Of a DNA stretch of 30,454 bases, positions 291 through 30,454 are shown piece by piece. The first letter of the stretch is position 1. Every line of letters begins with the position of its first letter. The notes under the pieces are model-generated. The model was not told where the DNA came from. It worked only from the letters and a program-made list of their open reading frames with translations, and ran no database searches. The stretch is from a virus. A program made the translations under genes and the position numbers. The DNA is taken from IMG/VR virus record IMGVR_UViG_3300020156_000070, positions 1 to 30,454 of that record, one strand, 5' to 3'.

Positions 291-661
291 GCACCGCGCC
301 CACCGGCCGATGCCGCTCCGGCCGGCACCCGCAAGCACCCGGTAGCGGCCGGTGCGCCCCCTGCGGTGTGGAGAACGCCGCACGGTCGAAGGAGTTCTGG
401 CAGCGGGTGCACGGCTCGGTGGCGCCGATGCTCGATGCCTTCCAGAACGCGCTGTGCGACCAGGACTGCGCCTGGCAGTACGACCCCACCGACCGCGACG
501 AACTGCGGGACGCCGGTGTGCAACGGCCGGAAGAGCTGCCGCGCATCCAGGCGGCAATCGCCCGGTGCCAGGCCTGCCCCATCCTGCTCGAGTGCCGGTT
601 CTTCGGGCGGGAGCACGATCTGCTCGGCGTGTTCGGCGGCGAATATCTCGGAGTGGCTTGA
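287..661 (+). CDS. WhiB-like iron-sulfur regulator, without the usual basic tail
   Basis: This 124-aa protein has the WhiB signature: C57 or C61, then C94-x2-C97-x5-C103 (ARCQACPILLECR), then the turn GVFGG at 114-118 in place of the usual G[VI]WGG. WhiB proteins bind a [4Fe-4S] cluster through four Cys and act with the housekeeping sigma factor to control transcription in actinobacteria; several actinophages carry copies. The GTG start at 287 overlaps the upstream stop (GTGA). Two oddities are visible. There is an extra N-terminal Cys pair (C23-x2-C26). The protein stops six residues after GVFGG, so the basic DNA-contacting tail typical of the family is missing. It may work through protein contacts, for example on sigma or as an antagonist of a host WhiB. 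The next promoter's -35 box overlaps its stop codon. Confidence 0.85.
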   Translation: MSTAPTGRCRSGRHPQAPGSGRCAPCGVENAARSKEFWQRVHGSVAPMLDAFQNALCDQDCAWQYDPTDRDELRDAGVQRPEELPRIQAAIARCQACPILLECRFFGREHDLLGVFGGEYLGVA

Positions 662-687
662 CAAGGTATGACAAGGCATGACATGAT
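658..687 (+). promoter_or_regulatory. Promoter with 10-bp tandem operator repeats (copy 1)
   Basis: A perfect -35 hexamer TTGACA (658-663) is followed, after an 18-bp spacer, by CATGAT (682-687, 4/6 match to the -10 consensus). The spacer is made of two and a half copies of a 10-bp unit, TGACAAGGTA, TGACAAGGCA, TGACA, so one helical turn separates each unit. The same 26 bases recur at 19639-19664 ahead of another rightward gene. This suggests a promoter under a shared regulator that binds direct repeats. It would transcribe the genes from 718 to 1711. Confidence 0.7.
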
Positions 688-1011: not shown

Positions 1012-1115
1012 TCCGGAGGACAGCGCCACTCGCGGCCGTGTTCGCATGGTCGGTGTGGCGCTCTTTCGTCGGGCTGATGGCGGTGTGGGCCGTGCTGAAT
1101 GGCGCGGCTACCTGA
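1008..1115 (+). CDS. Small membrane protein, 35 aa
   Basis: GTG 1008 overlaps the stop of the preceding gene (GTGA), the commonest start arrangement in this window. It encodes a short basic N-terminus (VIRRTAP) followed by one hydrophobic segment of about 25 residues with several Trp (LAAVFAWSVWRSFVGLMAVW), ending at TGA 1113-1115. The positive-inside pattern predicts a single-pass protein with its N-terminus in the cytoplasm. Its function is unknown. Support is the coupled start and the membrane segment; there is no homology evidence. Confidence 0.5.
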   Translation: MIRRTAPLAAVFAWSVWRSFVGLMAVWAVLNGAAT

Positions 1116-1138
1116 TACGGAAGAGAAGAGCAGGACGA

Positions 1139-1279
1139 ATGAGCAGGATTGACAAGATCGTGCAGCGAGCGATCGACGACGTGAAGCGCGAGCAGGCGGC
1201 CGAGCGAGCTTCGGAAGAGTCGTCGGCCGCTCGCACCGAACAGCCCCCCGACTCGCCCACCAGAGAGGAAAACCGCTAG
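1139..1279 (+). CDS. Hypothetical 46-aa charged protein
   Basis: The ATG at 1139 follows GAAGAG and AGGA purine runs 4-14 bases upstream. An in-frame upstream start at 1046 would add an unconvincing segment overlapping the membrane ORF, so I prefer 1139. The product is helical and highly charged (RIDKIVQRAIDDVKREQAAERASEE) with a disordered Pro/Glu tail. The next gene starts at the last base of its stop codon, so these small helical proteins are co-translated. I do not recognise the family. Confidence 0.55.
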   Translation: MSRIDKIVQRAIDDVKREQAAERASEESSAARTEQPPDSPTREENR

Positions 1280-3170: not shown

Positions 3171-4550
3171 TCAGAGGGTGACGCGGAAGCCGAACCCAGC
3201 GTGGTGCTGGGCACCGTCGATGGCGTAAGCGACCTCCACGGTCAGCACGCCGGTGGGGATGGCGAAGCTGTAGGGCTTGGCCGCCGGGATGGTCTCCGTG
3301 CCCTTGATGGTGACCTGCTCCCCTCCGCCCTTGATCCCCTTGATGTGGGTCAACTGGATGTCCTCGTACCCGACGCCGATCACGCCGAAGTACATGCCGG
3401 ACGGAACGACGAACGTGCGGGAGGTGAACTCGCCTTCGGTGGCGAACAGGTCGGCCATTTCGGTCTCCAGATCTCTTGCGAGCGGTTTGGGTTCAGGGAC
3501 GCCGGGGGTACCGCCCCCGCCACCGGCAGTGCCGAGGTTCCAGGCGCTGGTGTCGTCGCACGCCGGGCTGGCCACGACCGACAGGTGCAGGTGGCTCGTG
3601 TGCGGATTCACCCCGTGGTAAGGCTTCCAGCCCTGCGCGGGGTTCCAGATCCGGCGATCCCAGATGATGTACTTGATCCGCCAGTCCCGCAGGCGCGCCA
3701 GCTGACCGGCGAGCCAGTGGCAGTCGAGACCGCCCTCCGGGTCGTGGGTGAAGTCCCGGGCGGTCACGATTCCCGGGCCGTACCACGGGTTGTGATCGCT
3801 GTTGCGATTCTGGTGACTGGTGTCACCGATCGAGCCGTCGCTCCGCTTGTCGCGGTTCGGCGCCATCGCGTTGAGCTGGTCAAGCAGCTTGTTGAGCGAT
3901 TTGGCCACGCGCCATGCCATGGGCGTTCCCTTCCGTGCGGTGATGTCGATGGACACGCGGTCCCGGTCGATGTTGCGCGGCATACCGTAGGCGTCCACGA
4001 CCCCCGGCAGGATCGCCTCATCCGTGTACTGGTGTCCGATGTGGAATATCGATGGCACGCGGGAGTAGTTCGCCACGAGTGGCTTGACCGGGAACCCCCA
4101 CTCGTTGACCCGCATCGCTTTCATGAACGATTCGTTCGAGTAGGTGATCGGGTCGTAGTCGTTCCACTGCATCACCTGGTGGATGTACCGGCCGGTCGCG
4201 CTCGCCAGCGCCGCGCCGGTCATGTCGTTGGTGAAGCCCCATCGGCCTGCCGTGGTCGGCTCGAGGTCGATCATCGGCTTGATGTCGTGCGCGTCGGCCT
4301 GCGCCAGCGCGGCCATGAACTCCTCGGCCTGCTTTTGGGCGATCACGTTGCGGATGAAGCCGTACCCGCCGATCTTGAAACCGGCGTCGCGCAGGATCGG
4401 CACGGCGGACAGGTCGATCGGCCGGTCCGGGTCCGCGTCGTAGACCTTCACCCACACGTAGCCGCCGGTGACCGCGGCACGCAGCGCGGCCAGCTGGTCG
4501 ACCCGGTAGCGCTGCCAGTGCGCAACGTCGATTCCCTCGCCAGTGATCAT
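3171..4550 (-). CDS. Endolysin: GH25-type muramidase plus LAS-type peptidase
   Basis: The 459-aa lysin starts at ATG 4550, behind a GGAGG site; a longer frame from 4604 overlaps a hairpin and is less likely. Residues 1-205 look like a GH25 muramidase (GIDVAHWQ with D8; MIDLEP with D95 and E97 as the acid pair), which cuts the glycan strand. Residues 207-330 form a peptidase of the M15/LAS type common in actinophage lysins: SDH with H253, ARDFTHD with D266, and SHLHLS with H322 as zinc ligands or catalytic residues. A Gly/Pro linker (343-355) leads to a C-terminal beta-rich domain of about 100 residues that I do not recognise; wall binding is a guess. No LysB-type esterase is visible in the window. 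Confidence 0.88.
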   Translation of the reverse strand: MITGEGIDVAHWQRYRVDQLAALRAAVTGGYVWVKVYDADPDRPIDLSAVPILRDAGFKIGGYGFIRNVIAQKQAEEFMAALAQADAHDIKPMIDLEPTTAGRWGFTNDMTGAALASATGRYIHQVMQWNDYDPITYSNESFMKAMRVNEWGFPVKPLVANYSRVPSIFHIGHQYTDEAILPGVVDAYGMPRNIDRDRVSIDITARKGTPMAWRVAKSLNKLLDQLNAMAPNRDKRSDGSIGDTSHQNRNSDHNPWYGPGIVTARDFTHDPEGGLDCHWLAGQLARLRDWRIKYIIWDRRIWNPAQGWKPYHGVNPHTSHLHLSVVASPACDDTSAWNLGTAGGGGGTPGVPEPKPLARDLETEMADLFATEGEFTSRTFVVPSGMYFGVIGVGYEDIQLTHIKGIKGGGEQVTIKGTETIPAAKPYSFAIPTGVLTVEVAYAIDGAQHHAGFGFRVTL

Positions 4551-7945: not shown

Positions 7946-9057
7946 ACCGGGATCACTTCGACGCGCATCGATGAGTAGCCCGCCCCCGCCATGTCGATGC
8001 CGTTGACGCCTGCCGTCTTCAGCGCTCCCAGGTGGATGGTCTTCGCCCCCGTCAGCGTGCCGCTCGTGCCCTGCACGGTCTTGTAGTAGTAGGTGAAGGC
8101 GGTGTCCGCGCCGCCGCGGTCCCACGTCGTACGGCTGCCAGCGCCGCTGATCTCGGTGCCGGACGCGCTGCCGTCCCGGAAGCTGACCTCGTATTTCGTA
8201 CCCGTTCCCAGCTGCAGGGCGAGGCTGGCATCACACTTGAGCTTGTAATCCCACCCGGGGTCGGCGATCGAGATCGACCCGAGAGAGATATTCGTGGCGC
8301 CACCGCCGATGTTTGCCCCGCCGGCCGGATTCGTGGAATAGACGATCGACTTGGTGCCGTGCCACTTCTGGTCGTAGCCCCAGGTGTCGAGCATGTCCGG
8401 CAAGGTGCCGGTCGCCTTGCGGTAACGCAGCTCTCCCACGCGGTAGCCGGGATCGGTTAGCGAGTCCCCACCGAGCAGGATGCGCACCCCACCGTTGAGC
8501 ATCGTGCCGTTGCGGCCATCGGTGAAGGTGACCGACGCTCCACTCGAAACGTTCGCGTTCACCTGCGCTTGCGCGAGGTGGATGGCGCCGGTGGGCAGCG
8601 CGGGCATGACGTTCGAGCCGTCCTCGGCCCCCTTGACCGCGCGAATCTGCGCGGTCAGCCCGGCGTCGCCGATGCCGCTGTCGAGCACTTCGGCGATGAT
8701 CCGGTCCTTCCGGTTGTTCACCGCGTGCCCGGGGTCCATGGCGAACGTGCCGTTGAGCTGCTGGTAGGCCAGGTACGGCCCCTGACCGGCCCGGCTGCAC
8801 ACCCACGCGCCGGCGTACACGGCCACGTTCATGCCTGAGCCGGACCACCCCACGGTGAGGTCCAGTGGGCTCGAGGTGCCGCCGATGGTCGCGGACTGCG
8901 TGACCAGCACGCCGGAACGCCAGGTCTTCATCGGCACGGTGTTGGCGCCGCCGCTGTCCGCCTGCGCGAGCAGCGCGCCGATCGCCATGCGCCCCTCGAG
9001 CGCGGTGTTGGTGCCCTCGAGCGTCCATGCGCCGGTGGCGGTCAGAGTGGTTGCCAT
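7942..9057 (-). CDS. Minor tail protein, Gly/Thr-rich beta protein (371 aa)
   Basis: ATG 9057 has an AGGTAGGA site. The N-terminal part is strand-rich with Thr/Gly (TATGAWTLEGTNTALEGRMA) and an aromatic, Gly-rich central region. The C-terminal 130 residues look like one beta sandwich (ISIADPGWDYKLKCDASLAL through YSSMRVEVIPV). This composition and its location between the distal tail gene and the hub candidate are typical of a minor tail or receptor-binding component. No catalytic motif was seen. The next gene starts inside its stop codon (ATGA). Confidence 0.68.
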   Translation of the reverse strand: MATTLTATGAWTLEGTNTALEGRMAIGALLAQADSGGANTVPMKTWRSGVLVTQSATIGGTSSPLDLTVGWSGSGMNVAVYAGAWVCSRAGQGPYLAYQQLNGTFAMDPGHAVNNRKDRIIAEVLDSGIGDAGLTAQIRAVKGAEDGSNVMPALPTGAIHLAQAQVNANVSSGASVTFTDGRNGTMLNGGVRILLGGDSLTDPGYRVGELRYRKATGTLPDMLDTWGYDQKWHGTKSIVYSTNPAGGANIGGGATNISLGSISIADPGWDYKLKCDASLALQLGTGTKYEVSFRDGSASGTEISGAGSRTTWDRGGADTAFTYYYKTVQGTSGTLTGAKTIHLGALKTAGVNGIDMAGAGYSSMRVEVIPV

Positions 9058-9069
9058 GGGGTTCCTACC

Positions 9070-9942
9070 TCACATCGTGCTGGCGTCGTACCAGGTGGCA
9101 GACAGGGTGCCGGTGCCGCTCGCCGCGAGCGCCAGAGTGATCGAACTACGTTTCGGGATCTCGAACCACTGCGCGGCCACCATGCTCGAGAACCGGTCGA
9201 TGGTGCCGTTGAACAGCACGGTGTGGTTCTTGTTGTCGATCAGCAGGTAGTCGCCGGAGGCCAGCGCCGGCCCGAAGGTGTGCACCTGCCCGGTCTCCAC
9301 CAGCCGCACGGTCGCGCCCGCGGCGAGTGGGCCGTCCAGCCGGACGACCGGGTATTCGGTACCGGACCCGCCGTTGGTCAGCGTCATCGTCCCCGTGGTC
9401 GACGGCGTGCCCCAGGACAGCCCTGAGCCCCACACCAGGCCACTGCCCCAGGCGAGCCCGGTCCCGATGACCGGGGGCTGCAGCACACCCCCGTGCGGCT
9501 CGAGGGGGGACAGCCAGCGCGGGTCCGCGAACGCGAGGTTCATCAGGTACCGGAAGGTATAGCCGTTCGGCTCCTGCTCGATCTTGAGCTCGCCGTCCTG
9601 CTCGCACATCGCCTTGCGGGTGAGCCACGGCGAGGTGACCACCAGTTCGTGCTGCTCGCCATCGCTGAGCAGTCCGCGCAGCCAGTCCTCTGCCCGCTCG
9701 CGGGCGAGCCGGTCCGGCGCGATGCAGACACCGCGCAGCCACCGCCGCTCGACGTCCTGGTATGACTTGCGCCGGTAGCCGCCGGCGAACGCCGGTTTGC
9801 CGACGATCCGGGTCTTCATCGTCGGGCCGGACAGGATCGTCTGCTTCTCGACGGTCCACCGGCAGCCATCGTCGTCGACCGCGTTGCCCACCCACGCGGT
9901 GCCGTCGATCGCGTAGGTGGGGGAAGCGAAAGAGATCGGCAT
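9070..9942 (-). CDS. Distal tail protein (Dit-like)
   Basis: This 290-aa protein follows the tape measure gene directly, its ATG sharing a base with the tape measure stop (TGATG), which is the usual place of the Dit protein that caps the tail tube. The N-terminal half matches the phage tail domain pattern: strands around a Trp-rich core, a loop with GYRRKSYQDVERR, then WLRGLLSDGEQHELVV. A short tandem motif, GxGLxWGSGL repeated three times, lies at about residues 160-175 (near 9410-9470). The C-terminal half is a beta-rich domain with a Gly/Ser tail. Family assignment is by position and pattern. Confidence 0.75.
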   Translation of the reverse strand: MPISFASPTYAIDGTAWVGNAVDDDGCRWTVEKQTILSGPTMKTRIVGKPAFAGGYRRKSYQDVERRWLRGVCIAPDRLARERAEDWLRGLLSDGEQHELVVTSPWLTRKAMCEQDGELKIEQEPNGYTFRYLMNLAFADPRWLSPLEPHGGVLQPPVIGTGLAWGSGLVWGSGLSWGTPSTTGTMTLTNGGSGTEYPVVRLDGPLAAGATVRLVETGQVHTFGPALASGDYLLIDNKNHTVLFNGTIDRFSSMVAAQWFEIPKRSSITLALAASGTGTLSATWYDASTM

Positions 9943-18263: not shown

Positions 18264-19499
18264 TCAGGCTGCGGTCAGGTCGGCCGAGACGAAAAAGTCC
18301 GGCCGGTTGACCGCGAGCGCGAGCCGCTCCTCGGCGCGCAGCAGCACCTTGTTCTCCTCGGCAAACGTGCCGTGCTGCTCGAAGGTCCGCACCTCGACGG
18401 AGCGGCGGTCGAACAGCGTGGCGCCGAGCTGGTAGTTGCCGACCAGCGCGGTGCCCTGAGCGATGGAGTTGGTGCGCACGATCGGCAGGCCCCACACGTA
18501 CTGGATCGGCGCCTGCGTGATCGCACCGGCGTCGAGCTGACCGCCGGCGGTGCCACCCTGGTCGACCCGGTGGGTCATCATGTTCCAGAAGTCGATCGGG
18601 TTCATGGCCACGCCATCGGCGAAGCCGTCCACGACCTCGATCTTGGCGATGGACTGGCCGATGGTCAGCGCCATGTCGGTGAAGAACGCCTGCTCCTGCA
18701 CGTCGGTGTAGGAGAGGATGCCCTTGAGGTTCGGAGTGGTGCCGTTGCCGGAGAGGATCTGCGCTTCCTCGCGGAACTTCACCATGTACGGCAGGCGGCC
18801 GTTGATGTAGCCCATCAGGGTGGCCGCGTCCTCGACGATCTGCGTGGTGACCGGCAGGGTCACGGCGATGACCTGGACAGGCGCGTTGTCCGGGTCGAAC
18901 TGGATGGTCGCCTGGGGCTTGGCCGCGCCCTCGGCGACGGTCGCCGCGCCACCCTCGGTGGTGGTGACGTTCTTCTCGCGGATGTACGGAATGGCCGAGA
19001 GGCCGGTCTGCTGGACCCCGATCAGGTCCCGGATGAACAGCCGGCGGCGCCGGGTGTCCACGAGGTAGGGCTGTCCGACCGGCAGCAGCAGGCCGGAGCC
19101 GTTGGCGTCGCCCTCGGCGACCAGCGCGCGCAGTTCGTGGCGGAACTCGCCGGAGCGGATGCCGCCGTCCTTCACCCACTGCTGGTACCGCTCGGACTCG
19201 ACCACCTGGGCGCCCGCGGACCGCAGTTCGGCACCGTCGCCGCCGATCGCCGGGATGGCGCCTTCCGGGACACGCGGCACGCCGCGCAGGGCCTCGGGCG
19301 CCTTCGCCTTCGAGCGCAACGAGAGGTGGACGTCGATGTCCTCCATCTCGGCGAGGAACTCGGCCTTGCCGCGCTTGAACTCGTCGGTGTCCCGGCCCTT
19401 CTGGACCAGTTCCGTCCACTCGCTGCGCATTTCGGCCGCGCGCTCGCGCAGTTCTTCCTCGCCGGCGTCGCGGCGCCATTCGATCGTCGTCTGGGGCAT
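18264..19499 (-). CDS. HK97-family major capsid protein
   Basis: The 411-aa protein starts at ATG 19499 with AGGAG 8 bases upstream. Residues 1-60 form a charged coiled coil (GEEELRERAAEMRSEWTEL), the delta or scaffold domain expected to be removed by the prohead protease, followed by a linker to about residue 100. The rest follows the HK97 capsid pattern: GSGLLLPVGQPYL near the N-arm, the E-loop region (KNVTTTEGGAATVAEGAAKP), the spine-helix region, and late strands (LFDRRSVEVRTFEQHG, LALAVNRPDFFVSA). The phage head is an icosahedron of this protein. A rightward accessory gene separates it from its protease, which is unusual. Confidence 0.93.
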   Translation of the reverse strand: MPQTTIEWRRDAGEEELRERAAEMRSEWTELVQKGRDTDEFKRGKAEFLAEMEDIDVHLSLRSKAKAPEALRGVPRVPEGAIPAIGGDGAELRSAGAQVVESERYQQWVKDGGIRSGEFRHELRALVAEGDANGSGLLLPVGQPYLVDTRRRRLFIRDLIGVQQTGLSAIPYIREKNVTTTEGGAATVAEGAAKPQATIQFDPDNAPVQVIAVTLPVTTQIVEDAATLMGYINGRLPYMVKFREEAQILSGNGTTPNLKGILSYTDVQEQAFFTDMALTIGQSIAKIEVVDGFADGVAMNPIDFWNMMTHRVDQGGTAGGQLDAGAITQAPIQYVWGLPIVRTNSIAQGTALVGNYQLGATLFDRRSVEVRTFEQHGTFAEENKVLLRAEERLALAVNRPDFFVSADLTAA

Positions 19500-19600
19500 G
19501 TGCCCGCTCCTGTTCGTTCTGAGCATGGTCGATGGACACGCGCCCCGGTGGTCACAAGCGCCCGTTCACCCGGTGGCCGTCTGCCGCGAGTGTAGAAGAT

Positions 19601-19623
19601 CAGCCAGGCGGACGCGCCAACGC
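19601..19623. repeat. Direct repeat, left flank of the 300-bp accessory cassette
   Basis: This 23-bp segment matches 19901-19923 with 20 of 23 positions (ending GACGCGCCAACGC in both), exactly 300 bp apart; all three differences are transitions. Read leftward it encodes ALARPPG-stop, a relic of the protease C-terminus ALARLSG-stop found in the other copy. It lies between the capsid gene and the rightward accessory gene. Confidence 0.7.
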
Positions 19624-19638
19624 GACTCGGACTAACTG

Positions 19639-19668
19639 TTGACAAGGTATGACAAGGCATGACACACT
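19639..19668 (+). promoter_or_regulatory. Promoter with 10-bp tandem operator repeats (copy 2)
   Basis: TTGACA (19639-19644) and the following tandem TGACAAGG-type repeats are identical over 26 bases to 658-683. A weak -10 match (CACACT, 19663-19668) lies 18 bp downstream. Transcription would then begin at or within a few bases of the ATG at 19675, giving a leaderless or nearly leaderless mRNA, a common form in actinobacteria. It drives only the gene 19675-19899, which points against all its neighbours. Confidence 0.7.
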
Positions 19669-19674
19669 CGGTCT

Positions 19675-19899
19675 ATGAGCGAAAACGCCCCCCGAAACGC
19701 CGTCCTGAGCTTCGGTACTGAGCGCGGTAAGCGGATGACCGAAGAGGAAGCAGAGGCACTGCTCAAGAGCCAGGGATTCCACTTCATCCGGTCCCGTATC
19801 ATCACTCACCGTAACCGGCCAGCAGAAACGGTCATCGCCCAGTGGGAATCCGCTGATTACAGCCGGCGTGCCCGCCTGCGGGTGACCTATTCGATCTAG
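19675..19899 (+). CDS. Lone rightward accessory gene (moron-like), 74 aa
   Basis: This is the only rightward gene inside a 27-kb leftward operon. It has its own promoter (TTGACA at 19639) but no ribosome site, so it is probably leaderless. The protein is a mixed basic/acidic alpha-beta product: a helix (MTEEEAEALLKSQGFHFI), a loop and basic strands (RARLRVTYSI). I do not recognise a family. Its stop codon abuts the protease stop with no gap. It is flanked by direct repeats 300 bp apart, suggesting that it was inserted between the protease and capsid genes. Independent promoters and inverted orientation are classic for genes expressed from a prophage, for example in exclusion or host fitness. 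Confidence 0.7.
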   Translation: MSENAPRNAVLSFGTERGKRMTEEEAEALLKSQGFHFIRSRIITHRNRPAETVIAQWESADYSRRARLRVTYSI

Positions 19900-21534
19900 T
19901 CAGCCGGACAGACGCGCCAACGCAGCGAGCACGGCCTCATCGTCGATGTCGTCCGCGGGCGCGGGCTGTTCGGCGGACCGGACCGCGAGCGAGCGCTTCT
20001 CCCCCTCGGCCTTGGCGTAGAAGTAGTACTCGCCGCTGTCGAGCGGTGCGTCCACCATGCCGAGCAGGTAGGACAGCTCCCACAGGCTCGAGGCTGCGTT
20101 CTGGAAGAACCGGCGCGCGGCCACCACGTCGGCACCATCGAGCGACTCGGACAGGTCGGCAAGCTTGGTGTGCACGTCGGCGAGCACGGCCATCGGGTCG
20201 ACGTCGGTCTGTTCGCCGACCGCCCGGAACTCGAATGCCGCACCGGTGCGGGTTTCAGCGGGCGCCTTGCAGGCGTCGAGCGCGTCCGCGAGCGACAGCT
20301 TCCCGGTGGCGAAGCCGGTCAGCAGCTCCTGCGCGCGGGTCCCGGACAGCTCGGCGCCGCCGGGCTGCCGCGAGCGGATCGCGTTGACCGCGGTGCCCGG
20401 CACGCTGCCGTTGAGCACGACGGAGAATTCGTCGACCTCGGCCTCGGTGATCTGAGTGGTGTCGCGCAGTTCGGGGTCCGGGCGGGACTTGCCGCGCAGG
20501 AACGCGAAGCTGAACTCCTTCATCGTGCCGGAGCGGAGCTGCGCATACGCCTGCTTGGCGCGCGGCACGGCGTCGAAGTCGTCGAGTTCCACGTCGATGT
20601 CGAGCCCGTCCGCGCCATCGGTGTAGCTGACCACGCGGCCGATGGGGTCGTTCCAGTCGTGGCCCCACACCACCGGCGGCAGCTTGTCGCGCAGGCTGGC
20701 GCTGAACACACCGGGCGCCCACGATGTGCCGTAGCTGTCGCGCACCCCGTAGTTCAGTGCTCGCGCGGTGAAGCCGGGCGTCTTTCCCTCGCCGGCCTCG
20801 CGGAATTCGGTGATCTGCACGGGCATGGCCCGGGTCTCGATCTGCTTGCCCATGTGCTGCGCCTCTCGCGTCGCGGGGTCGATGTCATCGACCCGGTTGG
20901 TGGTGTTCCAGGGCTCGCCGAACGAGCACTTGCAGTTCGGGTGGACCTGCCCTGGGTAGCCGATGCGCGGGCGCACCAGCGCGTTGAAGTTACGGCCGTG
21001 CGCTTCCCGGCACCCGTGCTCGCACGCCCCCTGCTCGCCGTGCCAGCCGAACAGCACTTCACCGTCGTCGTCCGGATCGACGTCCTCGATCTCGGCGGCG
21101 AGCACCTCGGCCGCTGCCGCGCGCTGCTCCTGCGCGGCGATATGGGCGTCGAAGAGCTGGTCTTCCCGGTCGTGTGCCGCACGCATGGTGTCCGCGTCCC
21201 CGGTGGCGTTCGCCTCGGCGAGCCGGACCGTGGCGGTCACGAGATAGGCGGCTTGGTAGCCCGCGGCCGCCGTGCTGTCGTTAGCGCGCACCCGGTCCGC
21301 CGGCGTGTCCGCGTCCACCGCGGGCAGGAAGGTGCCGGCGGTGTTCTCGATCCAGTCGAACCAACCGCGTTCGGTGAAGACCGGTGCGACCGCGCCCGCC
21401 ACCAGCCCGGGGAGCTCGCCGATCAGGTCGACGATTACCGCGGCCGACTCACCTTCGAGCAGCGCGACGGCCACCGCGGCAATGACTTCCTCGGTGGCCT
21501 CATCCTCGACGGGCGGAGTGGCGGGCTCGGTCAT
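19900..21534 (-). CDS. MuF-like minor head protein fused to HK97-type prohead protease
   Basis: This 544-aa protein starts at ATG 21534 with the upstream stop just before it. The N-terminal 220 residues look like a MuF-type minor head protein: helices, then a Cys/His cluster with CEHGC (171, 175) and the family closing motif HPNCKC (198-203). From about residue 237 it is an S78-type prohead protease: strands, then GHD (H292), EFSFAF (S342) and DEF (E369) as the expected His-Ser-Glu active site. It should trim the capsid delta domain during maturation. A helical C-terminal tail of about 150 residues follows. Such fusions are known in actinophages. The stop codon touches the rightward accessory gene. 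Confidence 0.88.
   Translation of the reverse strand: MTEPATPPVEDEATEEVIAAVAVALLEGESAAVIVDLIGELPGLVAGAVAPVFTERGWFDWIENTAGTFLPAVDADTPADRVRANDSTAAAGYQAAYLVTATVRLAEANATGDADTMRAAHDREDQLFDAHIAAQEQRAAAAEVLAAEIEDVDPDDDGEVLFGWHGEQGACEHGCREAHGRNFNALVRPRIGYPGQVHPNCKCSFGEPWNTTNRVDDIDPATREAQHMGKQIETRAMPVQITEFREAGEGKTPGFTARALNYGVRDSYGTSWAPGVFSASLRDKLPPVVWGHDWNDPIGRVVSYTDGADGLDIDVELDDFDAVPRAKQAYAQLRSGTMKEFSFAFLRGKSRPDPELRDTTQITEAEVDEFSVVLNGSVPGTAVNAIRSRQPGGAELSGTRAQELLTGFATGKLSLADALDACKAPAETRTGAAFEFRAVGEQTDVDPMAVLADVHTKLADLSESLDGADVVAARRFFQNAASSLWELSYLLGMVDAPLDSGEYYFYAKAEGEKRSLAVRSAEQPAPADDIDDEAVLAALARLSG
19901..19923. repeat. Direct repeat, right flank of the 300-bp accessory cassette
   Basis: Partner of 19601-19623, 20/23 identical. 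This copy is the real 3' end of the MuF-protease gene (leftward ALARLSG-stop). The pair suggests an insertion or recombination event at the end of the protease gene that kept its C-terminus intact. Confidence 0.7.
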
Positions 21535-21953: not shown

Positions 21954-23747
21954 CTAGCTCCCTAGTTGTGCGATTGCCTGGTCAGGTGTCAACGAGCCAT
22001 CGGCCAGGGCGAGCAGCGCCTGCTGCACGACCTCTGCGGGCACGCTGCCCACGTACCGGTCGGTGTCGGTCCACTCGTCGAGATCGAGGTTGAATCCGTC
22101 GTCGAGCTGTTCGAGCACGGCGGCCGTGATGTCCTCGCTGTACCGGTCGATCTCCATCGCGCCGAGCGCGCGCAACGCCGGGCCGAAGGTGGCCACCGCG
22201 CGGGCGCGCCAGTGGTCGGCGTCGAAAGCCGTACGTATGTCCTCCTGGGCACGCACCTGCGTGCGCCGGCCGCGACCGCCGGACAACCGCCGGTCCAGCT
22301 CACCGCGGATCTCGCCGCGCCAGCTCTCGATCTGCGAGCGCAGCACGCCGACAAGCGGATCGGCACGCCGGATCGGCACCACGTTGCTCGCGCTGGCCGG
22401 CTTCTGCGTAGGCTCGCCCCCGCCGCTGCCGGACTCGCCGGTCTTCGCGTCGTCGGTGGGCAGGTCGGCCTCCGGCTGCGGGTCGGCCGTCTCCGGCAGC
22501 GGTCCCAGCCCCACGTCTTCGCGCCACTCGTCCGCCAGCAGCAGCCCGGCGTTGACCAGGGCGACCACCGTGGCTGCGTCGCCGTAGCTGGACCGCGGCG
22601 CCAGGGCGGGCACGTCGCTGACGTCGAACCACCCGACGTCCTCGCCACCCCAGGCGGGGGCGAGCGCCAGGTTGATGTGGTCTTCCATCTCCCGCATATG
22701 CTGGCGGCAGGTCTCCCAGAAATTCTGGTCGTCCATCTGCATGTTGGTGAACTTCGAGCGCGTGCTGTCGCCGAGCTTGGACAGCGGCACGCCGAAGGCC
22801 ACGCACATGTCCTGGACCTTCGAGTCCCGGAGCACGGACATCTCCGCGTCCTTCTGCGCCCGGCCCAGCGTGATGACGTTCACCGGGTCCGGCACCGTGC
22901 CGGTCGTGCCCTCGCCGGCCTCGATCTCCCGCTCGGCGAACAGCGTCTTGCCGGCGTTGCGCGCCCCGCCGAAGCGGCCGCGGAACTGGTTGCGGAACGC
23001 CTTGCGTTCTTCGCGGTTCTCGAACGGTTCGTGGATGACCAGGTGTGCGGGGATGCCGCCGTTCTGCAGGAACGCCGCATCGAACTGGGCGATGAGCTGA
23101 GCCACGTTCACGTCGTGCGCGGCGAACTGCAACGGGCTCTCGGGCTGGCGGAAGTCGTGCATCGCCGGGCGCCAGCGGTAGAGCACCTGCTCGTTGGTGA
23201 ACTCCTGGTAGCCGCGCTCCCCCTTGGTGCCGTACTCGAAGCCGTCGAAGTAGTCCGGGCTGGTGCTGTTCGGGTTGGCCATCTTCGGCTTGAGGTGCTG
23301 GGCCATCAGCGGCCACAGGCCGACCACGCGTCCGGCGGCGTCGAACTCCTTCACCGCGGCGAACTTGCCCATGATCAGATAGCTCGCCACCCAGAAGCGC
23401 CAGAGCATGGCCGCGGACCACACCTTGTTGGGACCACCGGGTGCCGGGCCGAGCAGACGCGCCAGCGGGGCGGTGCTCCGGGCTTTCCGGCTGACCGCGT
23501 TGCCCGCCTGGAACGGCTGGCCGGCGATCGATGTGGCGATCTTGTCGATGCAGCGATAGGCGTACATCGTGCGCTGGTAGCCCCGCCGGATGAGCCCGGC
23601 CCCGTCCCAATCGGACTGGATCGGCTGACCGGGCGCGTAGTACTGGCTGGTGTACTGCGCCCCGGGGGGCGCCTGCGTGGAGCGCGGCAGCGGTGGGCGC
23701 GCGCGGAAGCCGGCCAGCGCGGCAGCGGCGTCAATCAGTCTTCCCAT
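21954..23747 (-). CDS. Portal protein (HK97 type)
   Basis: The 597-aa protein (ATG 23747, overlapping the preceding small gene by 17 bases) carries portal features: an early YAYRCIDKIATSIAGQPF helix, a WVASYLIMGKFAAVKEF strand set, then HLKPK and LYRWRP, the wing and stem region with NREERKAFRNQFRGRFG and a conserved VAFGVPLSKLGDS loop ahead of the crown. The last 170 residues are a longer, partly disordered and acidic tail with further helices. Twelve copies form the ring through which DNA is packaged and to which the connector binds. Confidence 0.92.
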   Translation of the reverse strand: MGRLIDAAAALAGFRARPPLPRSTQAPPGAQYTSQYYAPGQPIQSDWDGAGLIRRGYQRTMYAYRCIDKIATSIAGQPFQAGNAVSRKARSTAPLARLLGPAPGGPNKVWSAAMLWRFWVASYLIMGKFAAVKEFDAAGRVVGLWPLMAQHLKPKMANPNSTSPDYFDGFEYGTKGERGYQEFTNEQVLYRWRPAMHDFRQPESPLQFAAHDVNVAQLIAQFDAAFLQNGGIPAHLVIHEPFENREERKAFRNQFRGRFGGARNAGKTLFAEREIEAGEGTTGTVPDPVNVITLGRAQKDAEMSVLRDSKVQDMCVAFGVPLSKLGDSTRSKFTNMQMDDQNFWETCRQHMREMEDHINLALAPAWGGEDVGWFDVSDVPALAPRSSYGDAATVVALVNAGLLLADEWREDVGLGPLPETADPQPEADLPTDDAKTGESGSGGGEPTQKPASASNVVPIRRADPLVGVLRSQIESWRGEIRGELDRRLSGGRGRRTQVRAQEDIRTAFDADHWRARAVATFGPALRALGAMEIDRYSEDITAAVLEQLDDGFNLDLDEWTDTDRYVGSVPAEVVQQALLALADGSLTPDQAIAQLGS

Positions 23748-24184: not shown

Positions 24185-24414
24185 GACACGTCACCCTCTC
24201 CGGCCGGCTCGCAGGTGCACGCGGCCAGCGGCACGCGCTCGCGGGGGCAGTACGGCACCGGCTGCTCCTGGCACGGGCACCCCTCGACCGGGCATTCGAT
24301 CTCGCGGCGCAGCAGACGGCCGCTGTCCGCCATGAGCTCGACCACCCGGTGGTCACCGTGCGGGTGCTCGCAGGTCGGGCAGGGGATCGGCTCGGTACTG
24401 ATCTGGTCAGTCAT
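24181..24414 (-). CDS. Zinc-finger-like Cys-rich protein, 77 aa
   Basis: ATG 24414 overlaps the terminase stop by 8 bases. The protein has eight Cys and three nearby His: CPTC (12, 15) with HPHGDH (17-22), then CPVEGCPC (41-48), CPRERV (56) and CTC (66-68). These pairs could make two treble-clef or ribbon-type zinc sites. Such small zinc proteins next to large terminase genes are found in many phages, but their role is not settled. DNA or protein binding is a reasonable guess. Confidence 0.7.
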   Translation of the reverse strand: MTDQISTEPIPCPTCEHPHGDHRVVELMADSGRLLRREIECPVEGCPCQEQPVPYCPRERVPLAACTCEPAGEGDVS

Positions 24415-25831
24415 CTTCAAACCTCATTCGTCGTTTGGCTTTCGCTGGTCCGAGCAGCAGTCTGTGTGCAGCCCACACCTCGGCGTCGAGCCGGTTGGGT
24501 GACCAGTCCGAAGGGGGGATCGGGTCGCCCTCGGCGTTGAACCGGCCCGGCGGAATCCAGGTGGTCCACTCCTCGGCGAGTTTGTCGAGCCCGAAGGAAC
24601 GCTCGCCGTCGTCCTTGAAGTCGGCCGCCACCAGGCCGGTGATGTGGTAGACCCGGCCCTGCTCGTAGAGCGAGACGACCGGCGTCGCCCGGATCTCCTT
24701 CCCGCGGGTGGCGTGCACGACCTCGACCGGCACCCGGTCACTACCCGCCCGGATGTTCGACCGCACCATGTCGCCACCGTAGTTGACCTCTGCCACGACC
24801 TCGTCCGCTTCGAACTCTTCGAAGGCGGCGAGCACAGCGGCGCGCCACCCCTCCGGCGAGTACTGCCCGCTCTTGTCCGCCAGAGTGTAGAAGTTCCGGT
24901 CCTTGTCGATGCCGGCCACGATGATCCCGGTCAGGTCGGAGGTCGACCACGCTGTGCCCGCGGGGTCGACGGCCACGACCACGCGCGTAAGCGGCGGTGC
25001 CTCGGGCACGTGCCTGATCAAGCGGTGGGTGATGAGCGCGCCCTCGGCAGCATCGAGGATGCGCCCCTCGAGCTCCTGCATGCCGAGTGTGGTGCCCTGG
25101 TACTGCGACTTGAGCCGGTTCAGCGTCCGTTCCGGCAGGTTCTCCTGGTTGTCGAATGTGGACACACCGTCCACCAGGTGGATATCCGGGTCGCTGGCCA
25201 GTTTCCGGATGAACTTGGTGGGCTTCGGCGTACTGGTGATGATCACCCGCGGGTCCTTGCCGAGCCGGACCGCGAACGTCGTGATATCCCACGCCACCTT
25301 GGCGTACTTCTGTGTAGCGATCTCCTCGAACCACGCGGTGTGGTACTGGTCACCACGCGTCTTCTCGGCGTCAGCCTGCGTGTTGGTGCCAAAGATCTTC
25401 GCCCGGCTGCCGTTGGTCAGCGTCAGCGTTCCGTGGCTGCGGTTCCAGTTCTTCACGTACTCCGGCGGGATGACGGCCAGCAGCCCCGACTCCCCCTCCA
25501 CGCAGACGTCACGGCCGATCGGGAAGTCGGGCACGATGATGGCGACACGGTGGTTCTTCTCGGACAGCATCCGCGTCTTGATCCACTCGGCGGCGCTGCG
25601 GGTCTTGCCGCCACCGCGGCCGTACATCAGGAACCAAGCCCACCAGTCTCCCGGCGGGGCGAGCTGCTTCGGCCTGGCATGGCGATTCGGGTAGAAGGCG
25701 TGCGGCTGGCCGTCGCACCCCGGAATGCCGCAATCCCATGCGTACTTGGCCAGGTAGGCAGCACGGCGCAGCCGAGCAAGCCTCTCATCCGGAGTGGGCG
25801 AGAGGCCTAGTTGCTCGGCTGCGGCGGTCAC
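24407..25831 (-). CDS. terL: Terminase large subunit
   Basis: The GTG start at 25831 overlaps the preceding stop (GTGA). Of 474 residues, 62-210 form the packaging ATPase: Walker A-like YGRGGGKT (70-77), Walker B WFEE (167-170) and the coupling motif STPKPT (200-205). The nuclease domain follows with D289 (AVDPAGT), E348 (VAEVNYGG) and D449 (RLDAEVW), the three metal-binding acids expected. It packages DNA into the prohead and cuts the concatemer. The N-terminus also has a Cys/His stretch (CGIPGCDGQPH, 34-44), a minor oddity. The Walker B has EE where DE is more usual. Confidence 0.94.
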   Translation of the reverse strand: MTAAAEQLGLSPTPDERLARLRRAAYLAKYAWDCGIPGCDGQPHAFYPNRHARPKQLAPPGDWWAWFLMYGRGGGKTRSAAEWIKTRMLSEKNHRVAIIVPDFPIGRDVCVEGESGLLAVIPPEYVKNWNRSHGTLTLTNGSRAKIFGTNTQADAEKTRGDQYHTAWFEEIATQKYAKVAWDITTFAVRLGKDPRVIITSTPKPTKFIRKLASDPDIHLVDGVSTFDNQENLPERTLNRLKSQYQGTTLGMQELEGRILDAAEGALITHRLIRHVPEAPPLTRVVVAVDPAGTAWSTSDLTGIIVAGIDKDRNFYTLADKSGQYSPEGWRAAVLAAFEEFEADEVVAEVNYGGDMVRSNIRAGSDRVPVEVVHATRGKEIRATPVVSLYEQGRVYHITGLVAADFKDDGERSFGLDKLAEEWTTWIPPGRFNAEGDPIPPSDWSPNRLDAEVWAAHRLLLGPAKAKRRMRFEDD

Positions 25832-26417: not shown

Positions 26418-26764
26418 CCGGTGGCTCGGGTGCCGAGCGCCCGCACCGCCGCGCTGTTCACGCTGGCCGTCACCGGGATGGCTTCCCCCAGGTCCGCCAT
26501 CAGCTCCCGTGCGAAGGCGCGGTTCTCCTGTGCCTGCTTCCCGCACTCCTGCATCCGGGCCTTCTCGAGCAGTTCGTCCATCTGTCCCGTGCTGTAGGTG
26601 ATGTGCGGCCAGTCCTCACCGTCGCCCACGCCGAACAGTTCCCTGCCGAGTTCGGTCAGGCTGCCCACGCTGTTCGCCAGGTAGCGGCCGTACGGCATGC
26701 CCTGCGGTGCGGCCACGTATCCGTTGAACTCGCTGCTGTAGCGGATGTCGTATGCGGTGGTCAC
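26414..26764 (-). CDS. Hypothetical 116-aa protein
   Basis: GTG 26764 overlaps the terminase small subunit stop (GTGA). The N-terminal half has aromatic strands (YDIRYSSEFNGYVAAPQG) and a short helix (SLTELGRELFGV); the C-terminal half is a charged helix (QMDELLEKARMQECGKQAQE) with a Thr/Ala-rich end. One Cys. No family recognised. Translational coupling to the small terminase suggests a packaging-related or co-expressed role, by position only. Confidence 0.6.
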   Translation of the reverse strand: MTTAYDIRYSSEFNGYVAAPQGMPYGRYLANSVGSLTELGRELFGVGDGEDWPHITYSTGQMDELLEKARMQECGKQAQENRAFARELMADLGEAIPVTASVNSAAVRALGTRATG

Positions 26765-27333
26765 TGAGTTTCCCTTTCGTGAGTGGAATCGTTGAGCCCC
26801 AACTGCTCGACCAGTTCGCGCAGTTCTTCATCCGGCGACTTCGCCGGAGCGGTGATCTCGACTTCCTGCTTGACCGGGACATCGGTGCCCCAGAGCTTGC
26901 GCTTGCTCTCGCTCAGCTTCCGGATGGTCTCGATCGCCTGCACGATCGGCCTGCTGTCGAGCAGCGGCTCGCAGGTGCAGTCGTTCACCGCGGTGTGCCG
27001 ATCCGCTGAGCAGTCCGCACTCCACCGGATGACACGCCCCTCGCTGACCACCAGCTGCATCCGCTCGTTGCCGAGCACGTCGTACGCCAGCCGGATCAAG
27101 TCGTCCAGTCGGTCGGACTCGAGCTGCCGGCGTTCGTTCACCAGCGGGTCGCGGACCTCCGCGGTCCAGGCTTTCAAGTCGTTCGCTACCGTCTGGTGCG
27201 ACACACCGAGTTCAGCGGCGATCTGCCGGTAGGACAGACCACGGATCGCCAGCCGGTGCGCCTGCTGCCGCCGTTCGGCCAGGGCAGCCTGCACGGTCGC
27301 GTCCTTGGTCGGGTGCTGCGACGGCTGGGCCAT
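26761..27333 (-). CDS. terS: Terminase small subunit (HTH)
   Basis: ATG 27333 has a strong AGGAGG site 10 bases upstream, better than the TTG at 27357. The 190-aa protein opens with a helix-turn-helix at about residues 30-57 (RGLSYRQIAAELGVSHQTVA), as in small terminases that recognise the packaging site. A charged helical middle with a CTC motif and an acidic C-terminus follow (ITAPAKSPDEELRELVEQL). It lies upstream of the large subunit, separated by three small genes, and likely starts the packaging module. Confidence 0.82.
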   Translation of the reverse strand: MAQPSQHPTKDATVQAALAERRQQAHRLAIRGLSYRQIAAELGVSHQTVANDLKAWTAEVRDPLVNERRQLESDRLDDLIRLAYDVLGNERMQLVVSEGRVIRWSADCSADRHTAVNDCTCEPLLDSRPIVQAIETIRKLSESKRKLWGTDVPVKQEVEITAPAKSPDEELRELVEQLGLNDSTHERETQ

Positions 27334-27385
27334 GATCGTCAATCCTCCTGAATCCAACTACCTGCTTGATCAACGTACCTGTTGA

Positions 27386-28826: not shown

Positions 28827-29097
28827 GGTTGTCCAGTGGTTGTCAATGATCTTGTTAGGTTGTCCGTCGCAGGTCAGGGCGGTTGTCCGAAAAACAGGCC
28901 TCTGGTTGTCCGGGAGGTTGTCAATGATCTTGTTAGGTTGTCCGTGCCTGGTCAGGGCGTTTCCGATATGTCCGTTTTGTCCGGTACAACCCCCCTGAAG
29001 ATCCACATCGGTTGTCTGAGCTGTGACCAGCAGAAACAGGGTTGTCCCAAGATCTTTTACTGGCCAGTAGACAACCAGATCAAGATCCCGGACAACC
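28827..29097. repeat. GGTTGTCC iteron-like array (candidate origin or operator region)
   Basis: Copies of GGTTGTC[CAT] occur in the same direction at 28827, 28838, 28858, 28881, 28904, 28916, 28936, 29010 and 29040, and inverted copies (GACAACC) at 29070 and 29091. Spacings in the first seven are 11, 20, 23, 23, 12 and 20 bp, so the sites fall close to one face of the helix. A 77-78-bp unit (from 28827) is repeated in tandem (from 28904), including an AT-rich ATGATCTTGTTA between sites. The stretch is clearly less GC-rich than the genes around it and has no supported ORF. It lies next to a replicative helicase gene. Confidence 0.75.
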
Positions 29098-29264: not shown

Positions 29265-30454
29265 CTACTCGCGCTGGTCTTCGGGCACCCAGATGGAGCG
29301 CCCCGTCTTCCCGCTGCTGCCCTCCGGCACGATGGCGCCGGCGGCAACGAGCGTGTCCCATGCCCGCCGGATGGACTGGTCCGAGAGCTTGCGCTCGAAG
29401 AAGGTGGCCGCTTCCGCACGCGACCGCCCGGCACTGCCGAACGGGGCGTTGTAGGCCATGTAGCGCGCCAGGTCCGGCACCAGCTTGAGCCCCGGCCCGT
29501 GGACCTCCGCCAGTGCGCCGATGTCCGGTGGCTGCTCGCTGTCCCACTGCTCGGCCAGCCGCGCCATGACCGGCCCGGTGCCGTCGACCAAGACCCCGCT
29601 GTCCGTACCGCCGATCATGGCGAAGGACAGCTCGATCCCCTTGATCTCCTCGTCGTCCTTCTGCTTGACCACGTCCACGGTGACGCCGAGCCCGCCCTTG
29701 TCGCGGTCCGGACGGGTGAACGTCAGCTCGGTGTCGATGGCCGCGGTCACCGAGCTCGAGCCGCGTCCGCGGGCGCCGGAGTGCCCCGTGTGGTGGACCA
29801 GCAGCACGCACGCGCCCGACGCCACCTTGATCCGCTCTAGTACCTGCATGACGCGCCCCATCTCGGCGGCCGAGTTCTCCTCGACGCCGATGGTGTTGCG
29901 TGCCTGCGTGTCGAAGATGACCAGGGCAAACTGCCGTTTGGCCGCGAGCGCAATCAGGCTCTCGCGCTCGAGCTCACCGAGCTGGACCGGCCGCGGCAGG
30001 AAGTACACGCCGGTCATCCGCCGCTGGTGGTAGGCCTCCCAGGCGGTCACGCGCTTGCTCATGCCCTGCGCACCCTCGGCCACCACGTAGAGCACGTCGC
30101 CGCGGCTGGCGCGCTTCCCGGCCCACGCCGACCCCTCACCGATGGCCGCGGCGAGGCCGAGCACGCCAAAGGACTTGAACGACCCGGACGCGCCGGTGAT
30201 CCGGGCTGTCGAGTTACGCACGAGTATCTTGTCCACCAGGTACTCCGGCGCGGGCAGCTGCTGCAGCTGCCAGGGAGAGAGCAGCTCGGCCTCGAGCCCT
30301 TCGGCCGCCTGCTGCGCGGCCGCCCCGCCGGCGGCGAGCGAGGCAGCCATCTGCGGATCACCGTCGATCAGGTCCTCGAGCGATTCGAAGATCCACGGCC
30401 GGCGCAGCCCCTCGGTGACCCCGCGCCCGGCCGCCTTCCGGTCGTTCGCGTCGA
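29265..30454 (-). CDS. RepA/DnaB-like replicative helicase, 5' partial
   Basis: The frame is open to the window edge, so the true start lies further right; an ATG at 30348-30350 is internal. The stop is at 29265. The Walker A motif is GASGSFKS, as in RepA-type AAA_25 helicases. Walker B is VIFDT, and a VHHTG segment followed by ARGRGSSS matches the sensor region of this family. The upstream sequence, DANDRKAAGRG, resembles the end of a Toprim primase domain, so the full protein may be a primase-helicase. A C-terminal winged-helix-like end (RAEAATFFERKLSDQSIRRA) fits family practice. It unwinds phage DNA at replication forks. Confidence 0.8.
   Translation of the reverse strand, partial: DANDRKAAGRGVTEGLRRPWIFESLEDLIDGDPQMAASLAAGGAAAQQAAEGLEAELLSPWQLQQLPAPEYLVDKILVRNSTARITGASGSFKSFGVLGLAAAIGEGSAWAGKRASRGDVLYVVAEGAQGMSKRVTAWEAYHQRRMTGVYFLPRPVQLGELERESLIALAAKRQFALVIFDTQARNTIGVEENSAAEMGRVMQVLERIKVASGACVLLVHHTGHSGARGRGSSSVTAAIDTELTFTRPDRDKGGLGVTVDVVKQKDDEEIKGIELSFAMIGGTDSGVLVDGTGPVMARLAEQWDSEQPPDIGALAEVHGPGLKLVPDLARYMAYNAPFGSAGRSRAEAATFFERKLSDQSIRRAWDTLVAAGAIVPEGSSGKTGRSIWVPEDQRE

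Follow-up and report, generated by a model that had tools for sequence, protein, structure and literature searches.

The window, as we call the whole analysed stretch of DNA, is a single virus record from IMG/VR whose genes and features are listed in Table 1. When its portal protein was compared with named phages we obtained 17 matches, 14 of them in Gordonia phages and 2 in Streptomyces phages, with 23–25% identity among the matches listed. Because most portal matches belong to Gordonia and Streptomyces phages and a WhiB-like ORF is present in the window, an actinobacterial host is suggested. Searches for close relatives of the window phage were negative in viral contigs (queried with the 97-aa and 74-aa products, the capsid and the portal; the capsid gave one weak match), in named phages (queried with capsid and portal, both small products and 8 kb of window DNA) and, with the 87-aa product as query, in plasmids and 394 actinomycete genomes; the portal gave four weak matches in the same 394 genomes. 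The left end (1–1711) may belong either to the phage or to host DNA flanking a prophage. As the window starts there and the ORFs at 718–1011 and 1448–1711 have no PHROGs match, the plus-strand genes at 718–1711 can be assigned to the phage only tentatively; in Pfam and PHROGs the plus-strand genes of the left end gave no match to a phage family except the weak WhiB one. We also observed a cluster of GGTTGTC: the shuffled window has 3.44 copies on average, the real one 13, of which 11 lie within 271 bases adjoining the helicase gene (28827–29097). This cluster includes a 47-bp near-duplicate (28838–28884 and 28916–28962) and may represent an origin of replication or another set of operators. 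TGTTGGAC-type repeats are found in a like place (9040–9300 of locus L314) in another virus record, G401, which is discussed below.

Table 1. Genes and sequence features of the window
Feature	Position	Strand	Remarks
Window (one IMG/VR virus record)	30,454 bases		68% GC
WhiB-like ORF	368–661	+	Stop inside promoter 1; 19.8 of 23.6 bits, below Pfam cut-off
Promoter/operator 1 (putative)	658–687	+	-35 TTGACA 658–663; -10 CATGAT 682–687, TG-extended
Promoter/operator 1, further units	668–673; 678–683	+	Second unit ATGACA; third unit ATGACA
First ORF behind promoter 1, 97 aa	718–1011	+	Unknown function; no Pfam or PHROG match
ORF, promoter 1 set	1046–1279	+	ATG 1139, same frame, likelier start (by eye)
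Small ORF, promoter 1 set, 53 aa	1279–1440	+	
Small ORF, promoter 1 set, 87 aa	1448–1711	+	EspC-like, 14.5 of 23.5 bits, below Pfam cut-off
Endolysin gene	3171–4550	-	Tail genes also on minus strand
Capsid gene	18264–19526	-	
24-bp direct repeat, left copy	19600–19623	+	
Promoter/operator 2 (putative)	19639–19668	+	-35 TTGACA 19639–19644; -10 CACACT 19663–19668, TG-extended
Promoter/operator 2, further units	starts at 19649 and 19659	+	
Moron-like gene, 74 aa	19675–19899	+	phrog_38040 (unknown function), E 4.8e-5
24-bp direct repeat, right copy	19900–19923	+	3' end of protease gene
Protease gene	19900–21534	-	
Portal gene	21954–23747	-	
Terminase gene	24407–25627	-	
HTH protein gene	26761–27357	-	
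Helicase/primase-like gene	29265–30452	-	

The 26-mer TTGACAAGGTATGACAAGGCATGACA occurs identically at 658–683 and 19639–19664, both times on the plus strand, and no third copy exists in the window. Within it, the 10-bp unit WTGACAAGGY is present in full twice, and TGACA follows a third time after one more period. With up to three mismatches allowed, a 25-mer form was found at only those two places, the 25-mer pattern read backwards gave no match in the window, and all four matches of an 18-mer core fell within the two elements; in 100 shuffles the core occurred 0.02 times on average and once at most. The identity of the two copies stops at or near the unit borders, so duplication of a larger cassette is not the explanation. 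The TGA stop codon (659–661) of the WhiB-like ORF falls within the first copy and the second copy is intergenic, and both are located upstream of plus-strand ORFs while the structural genes are encoded on the minus strand. An earlier note on this DNA had claimed these 26 shared bases, their position before rightward genes that oppose the late operon and their location outside coding sequence apart from a stop codon, and all of this was confirmed.

Both elements share one layout, in which TTGACA is followed by an 18-bp spacer containing the second unit and by a YANNNT hexamer with TG one base before it. Searching the whole window on both strands for exact TTGACA-N18-YANNNT, we found only the two elements, and one more place with one mismatch. 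A promoter scan called the first element (10 of 12 matches) and missed the second, the -10 of which is weaker. Both elements are predicted to be near-consensus sigma-70-type promoters. The sequence and the recurrence of the geometry in other records (see below) support the earlier description of two promoters before accessory genes, with direct repeats one helical turn apart and the -35 box inside them. TTGACA is the consensus -35 box, and a partial match between any two ordinary promoters is therefore expected, but 26 identical bases occurring twice contrast with a shuffle expectation near zero. Chance resemblance is thereby refuted for the identity itself, and we regard its probability as negligible. 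Promoter 2 ends 6 nt before the ATG at 19675, so the mRNA of this gene is probably leaderless. Between promoter 1 and the ATG at 718 there are 30 nt with a purine-rich, ribosome-binding-like sequence; leaderless starts are thus not a fixed property of the element.

The gene behind promoter 2 opposes its neighbours in direction and adjoins the protease gene, which ends at 19900. The two copies of the 24-bp direct repeat on either side are identical in 21 of 24 positions and lie 300 bp apart, start to start; a score as high was reached by 2 of 2,972 randomly drawn pairs of window stretches. Such bracketing is what an inserted gene can leave, and suggests that 19600–19899 is an inserted moron-like cassette, the bracketing repeat being the one feature that points to insertion. 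With regard to the further hallmarks of a moron, an own promoter may be seen in the promoter-like element 6 nt before the ATG, and no terminator-like site was listed behind 19899. A similar case is YungJamal gene 60, for which a report on cluster O describes imperfect 24-bp repeats on both sides (PMC4351075).

We then turned to other virus records. Three TGACA units with at most two mismatches were found in 15 of 17 records picked via matches of an earlier pattern scan, with nine matches in G401, all on the plus strand. The form in G401 is TTGACACTCR-TTGACACTCR-TTGCTACACT-N6-ATG, upstream of small plus-strand genes. A scan of viral contigs for the full geometry, including an ATG 6 nt on, gave 33 matches in 31 stretches. 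Thirteen of these matches come from eight records with a GC content of at least 0.65; the remaining 20, among which the record of locus L333 was examined further, come from lower-GC records, and a few sequences are represented among them repeatedly. G401 and three records related to it and to each other (G415, G416 and G417; 104,524 bp together) were searched for leaderless-type sites, defined as TTGACA with at most one mismatch, a spacer of 17–19 bp, TANNNT, 5–7 nt and a start codon with an ORF length of at least 40. We found 12 distinct sites, of which 11 have a spacer of 18 bp and 6 nt to the start codon, and 10 of the 12 have a second TGACA at an offset of exactly 10 bp from the first. In the remaining two, the promoter of an HTH gene and one other site, TGTCA and TGATA respectively are found instead. 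The same search in three control sets yielded 15, 20 and 1 sites, i.e. 36 in about 2.5 Mb, none with TGACA at the 10-bp offset: a single spacer TGACA was seen at another offset, and a 280-kb high-GC subset contained no site. The controls are mostly of lower GC than the G401 family, and as the family itself was found through this pattern, the strength of its evidence lies in the several sites per record and not in the first one. Several sites per record were also seen in other high-GC virus records. G420, the terminase of which is 40% identical to that of the window (E 1e-82), has three sites of the form TTGACA-18-CATACT-6-ATG, with the second unit direct in one and inverted in two, and G418 has one site, TTGACAACCCATGACAAGGTGTGCTAAGGT. 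Two leaderless-type promoters in G420 (1364 and 4757 of locus L351), again with a spacer of 18 bp and the ATG 6 nt on, have a -35 box that opens an almost perfect inverted repeat, TTGACAACTCTTGTCAA. Thus, the architecture recurs in other virus records, although the exact 26-mer does not and a close relative of the phage was not found; taken broadly, the outcome that the earlier note named as refuting, a repeat lacking at other promoters of relatives, did not come about.

These comparisons bear on the possibility that no regulator is involved, and that the elements are a tandem-duplicated strong -35 box or short homology for cassette swapping, with copies that are alike through recent exchange. 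The direct repeat around the moron-like cassette implies that recombination has acted there, and other records have tandem TGACA arrays that lack a promoter context. However, the identity of the two window copies ends with the units and does not extend into neighbouring sequence, and the sites of the G401 family differ in the variable bases and nevertheless keep the spacing and the second TGACA. Moreover, the second TGACA is unlikely to serve as an alternative -35 box, as just 8 bp would separate it from the shared -10 and no suitable -10 is seen further down. We therefore consider an origin without a regulator unlikely.

Near-exact matches of the 18-mer core were found in 7 stretches of viral contigs and 53 of genome contigs, where we estimate that 17 fixed bases would produce about 30 chance matches. 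None of the matches that were read, in one case covering genome-contig loci with a GC content of at least 0.55, has the promoter context of the window, and several are tandem arrays or unrelated. BLAST of both 30-base promoters against named phages returned only matches with E of at least 0.6. With up to three mismatches the element was found in 2 of 394 actinomycete genomes, one of the two matches being a Streptomyces 10-bp array without the promoter layout; three exact TGACA units occurred in none of 197 and the leaderless geometry in none of 89 such genomes. In addition, the element was not seen in Thermobifida phage P1312 and Streptomyces phage Xkcd426 (each to base 50000) or in the whole of Dagobah, which had been chosen for terminases similar to that of G401. 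In P1312 we noted a leaderless-type promoter before a regulator gene (47943, locus L353) with a different 10-bp direct repeat, GCAGGCAACA, occurring twice and, as read by eye, spanning the spacer and the -10. Long arrays were encountered as well: 27 overlapping 10-bp TTGACA-pattern matches fall within less than 400 bases of record G409 (TTGACATGAC-type, 37123–37498 of locus L152), and a genome contig of Singulisphaera sp. GP187 contains a long array of TGACACGGGA 10-bp units (about 3300–3500 of locus L053). A general enrichment of the 10-bp period among phages was considered and dropped, given that the counts in viral contigs were saturated for generic three-unit patterns with 10-bp and with 11-bp spacing alike. 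In the open-licence literature we found no earlier report of this promoter layout.

A candidate for the binding protein emerged in the G401 family. G401, G415 and G416 each have a small HTH gene with weak matches to HTH_17 and phrog_66. In G401 (about 8520–8795 of L314, minus strand) its start lies 7 nt behind TTGTCA-18-TAGTGT, a promoter with the repeat units inverted within the spacer. The G415 homologue is 62% identical and preceded, by eye, by a similar arrangement (TTGCCC-18-TAATCT, 6 nt to the ATG, inverted units). The G401 protein matches phrog_66, ‘excisionase and transcriptional regulator’, with E 4.7e-5, and its matches to HTH_3 and HTH_17 are below the cut-off. No relative was found in named phages or, at 1e-5, in any of 296 genomes, the comparison with solved structures gave one chain only (E 0.91), and with a mean pLDDT of 54.6 the fold model was not of usable quality. 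BldC and RdfS, which are of the HTH_17 type, line up head to tail on DNA, and BldC molecules at smeA-sffA are separated by one DNA turn (PMC5859096, PMC11963761). Considering the inverted units in its own promoter, the phrog_66 match and the head-to-tail binding of HTH_17-type proteins, the simplest reading for the G401 family is that the candidate HTH protein controls itself negatively and also controls the accessory promoters. Strict head-to-tail binding fits G420 poorly, because the second unit is inverted in two of its three sites; either the proteins differ or binding would be looser than head to tail. For the window such a regulator is suggested by analogy only. Searches with Pfam and PHROGs revealed no regulator candidate in the window, including no such small HTH gene, and as the window is a fragment a counterpart would lie outside these 30 kb. 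The small regulon that had been postulated is thus an inference as far as its common regulator is concerned.

We propose that the repeats form a tandem operator placed on the -35 box, at which a phage protein would bind side by side one turn apart, exclude polymerase and co-switch both accessory sets; in our judgement this has an even chance of being correct. A sigma-70-type promoter would serve small accessory genes, and its -35 box would at the same time be the first unit of the operator. The units, (W)TGACA-N4 head to tail every 10 bp, would present themselves on the same face of the helix, with unit 1 as the -35 box, unit 2 filling the spacer and unit 3 reaching into the extended -10. Once two or three units are occupied by a protein encoded by the phage, RNA polymerase would be shut out and the promoter thereby repressed, and when the protein is absent the perfect -35 box and extended -10 would allow strong expression. 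Both accessory sets would be switched together, independently of the opposed late operon. That the elements are transcribed, that one protein binds and represses both of them and that translation at 19675 is leaderless, we infer.

Repression or activation by occupancy had both been considered in the earlier note. The -35 box indeed lies within the repeats, and since the units cover both the -35 box and the extended -10, on which polymerase depends, occupancy should repress; the position of the element hence favours repression over activation. For activation, the WhiB-like product or a host factor would have to cooperate with sigma on these -35 boxes. The primary sigma factor is the partner of WhiB proteins, and the WhiB-like ORF ends inside the first element. 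However, its WhiB match stays below the Pfam cut-off, a perfect -35 box together with an extended -10 leaves little for an activator to add, and the element is not apparent in the actinomycete genomes that were sampled (2 of 394, 0 of 197 and 0 of 89, as given above), which makes activation very unlikely. Alternatively, an L5-like monomeric immunity repressor might bind each asymmetric unit singly, with the array raising occupancy, and the elements would then belong to an immunity system and not to an accessory switch. The 13-bp asymmetric L5 operator, the consensus of which we take to be GGTGGMTGTCAAG, was matched with two mismatches twice in the window (shuffle mean 1.23) and once in L314 (mean 1.00), that is, not beyond chance in either. 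The window has asymmetric units, too, in arrays that are both oriented alike relative to transcription, and cluster A repressors are described as monomers on asymmetric 13-mers distributed over the genome, some at promoters and oriented with transcription (PMC9283540, PMC6550527). Yet there are only two arrays in 30 kb as opposed to more than 20 single sites, and no homologue of such a repressor was seen, so that we regard an immunity system as improbable.

Taken together, our findings suggest a common on/off switch for two small accessory gene sets. If the tandem operator model is true, the regulated accessory genes of a phage group could be found by eye from a sequence signature, and a candidate switch protein would be named in one family (G401). 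It would also explain how inserted genes come under phage control without touching the late operon, and would offer a simple system for studying direct-repeat binders that silence a promoter from inside the -35/-10 region. More tentatively, and as a possibility to which we give less credence, the elements may represent an undescribed operator class of high-GC phages, characterized by a 10-bp tandem on the -35 box, leaderless scattered genes and one small, excisionase-like array former that represses itself via inverted units. Acquired cassettes would then join the regulon by bringing or evolving a tandem -35 box.

Compared with known systems, the elements share features with several. Cluster A phages (L5, TipsytheTRex) likewise have dispersed asymmetric phage sites that are oriented with transcription and in part lie on promoters, but these are single 13-bp sites, 20–30 per genome, many of them within operons where they stop elongation (PMC9283540, PMC6550527); the window, in contrast, has tandem 10-bp units of another sequence in two arrays within the 30,454-base fragment, both promoter-like. 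Cluster O (Corndog) resembles the window in that short repeats are conserved in the genome of an actinophage and leaderless promoters occur there as well, whereas its repeats are 17-bp inverted sequences at 34 sites, mostly not at promoters (PMC4351075). The gene at 19675 is similar to phage morons in being a single gene directed against its neighbours, with its own predicted promoter and a short direct-repeat bracket, and differs from them in that no terminator was seen and that its operator-like element is common to a gene set 19 kb away. With the sites of BldC, RdfS and lambda Xis the elements have in common direct repeats about one helical turn apart and a variable unit number: direct repeats on one face are found here with 10-bp spacing, three units in the window and two to four in G401, and the excisionase-like HTH gene of the G401 family carries units in its own promoter. 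The BldC consensus repeat is AATTNNNN(C) with 9 bp (PMC5859096), whereas the 26-mer contains no AATT and its unit, with TGACA every 10 bp, is 10 bp long. We therefore file the element as a member of neither the L5-operator nor the BldC/Xis family, although it resembles both.
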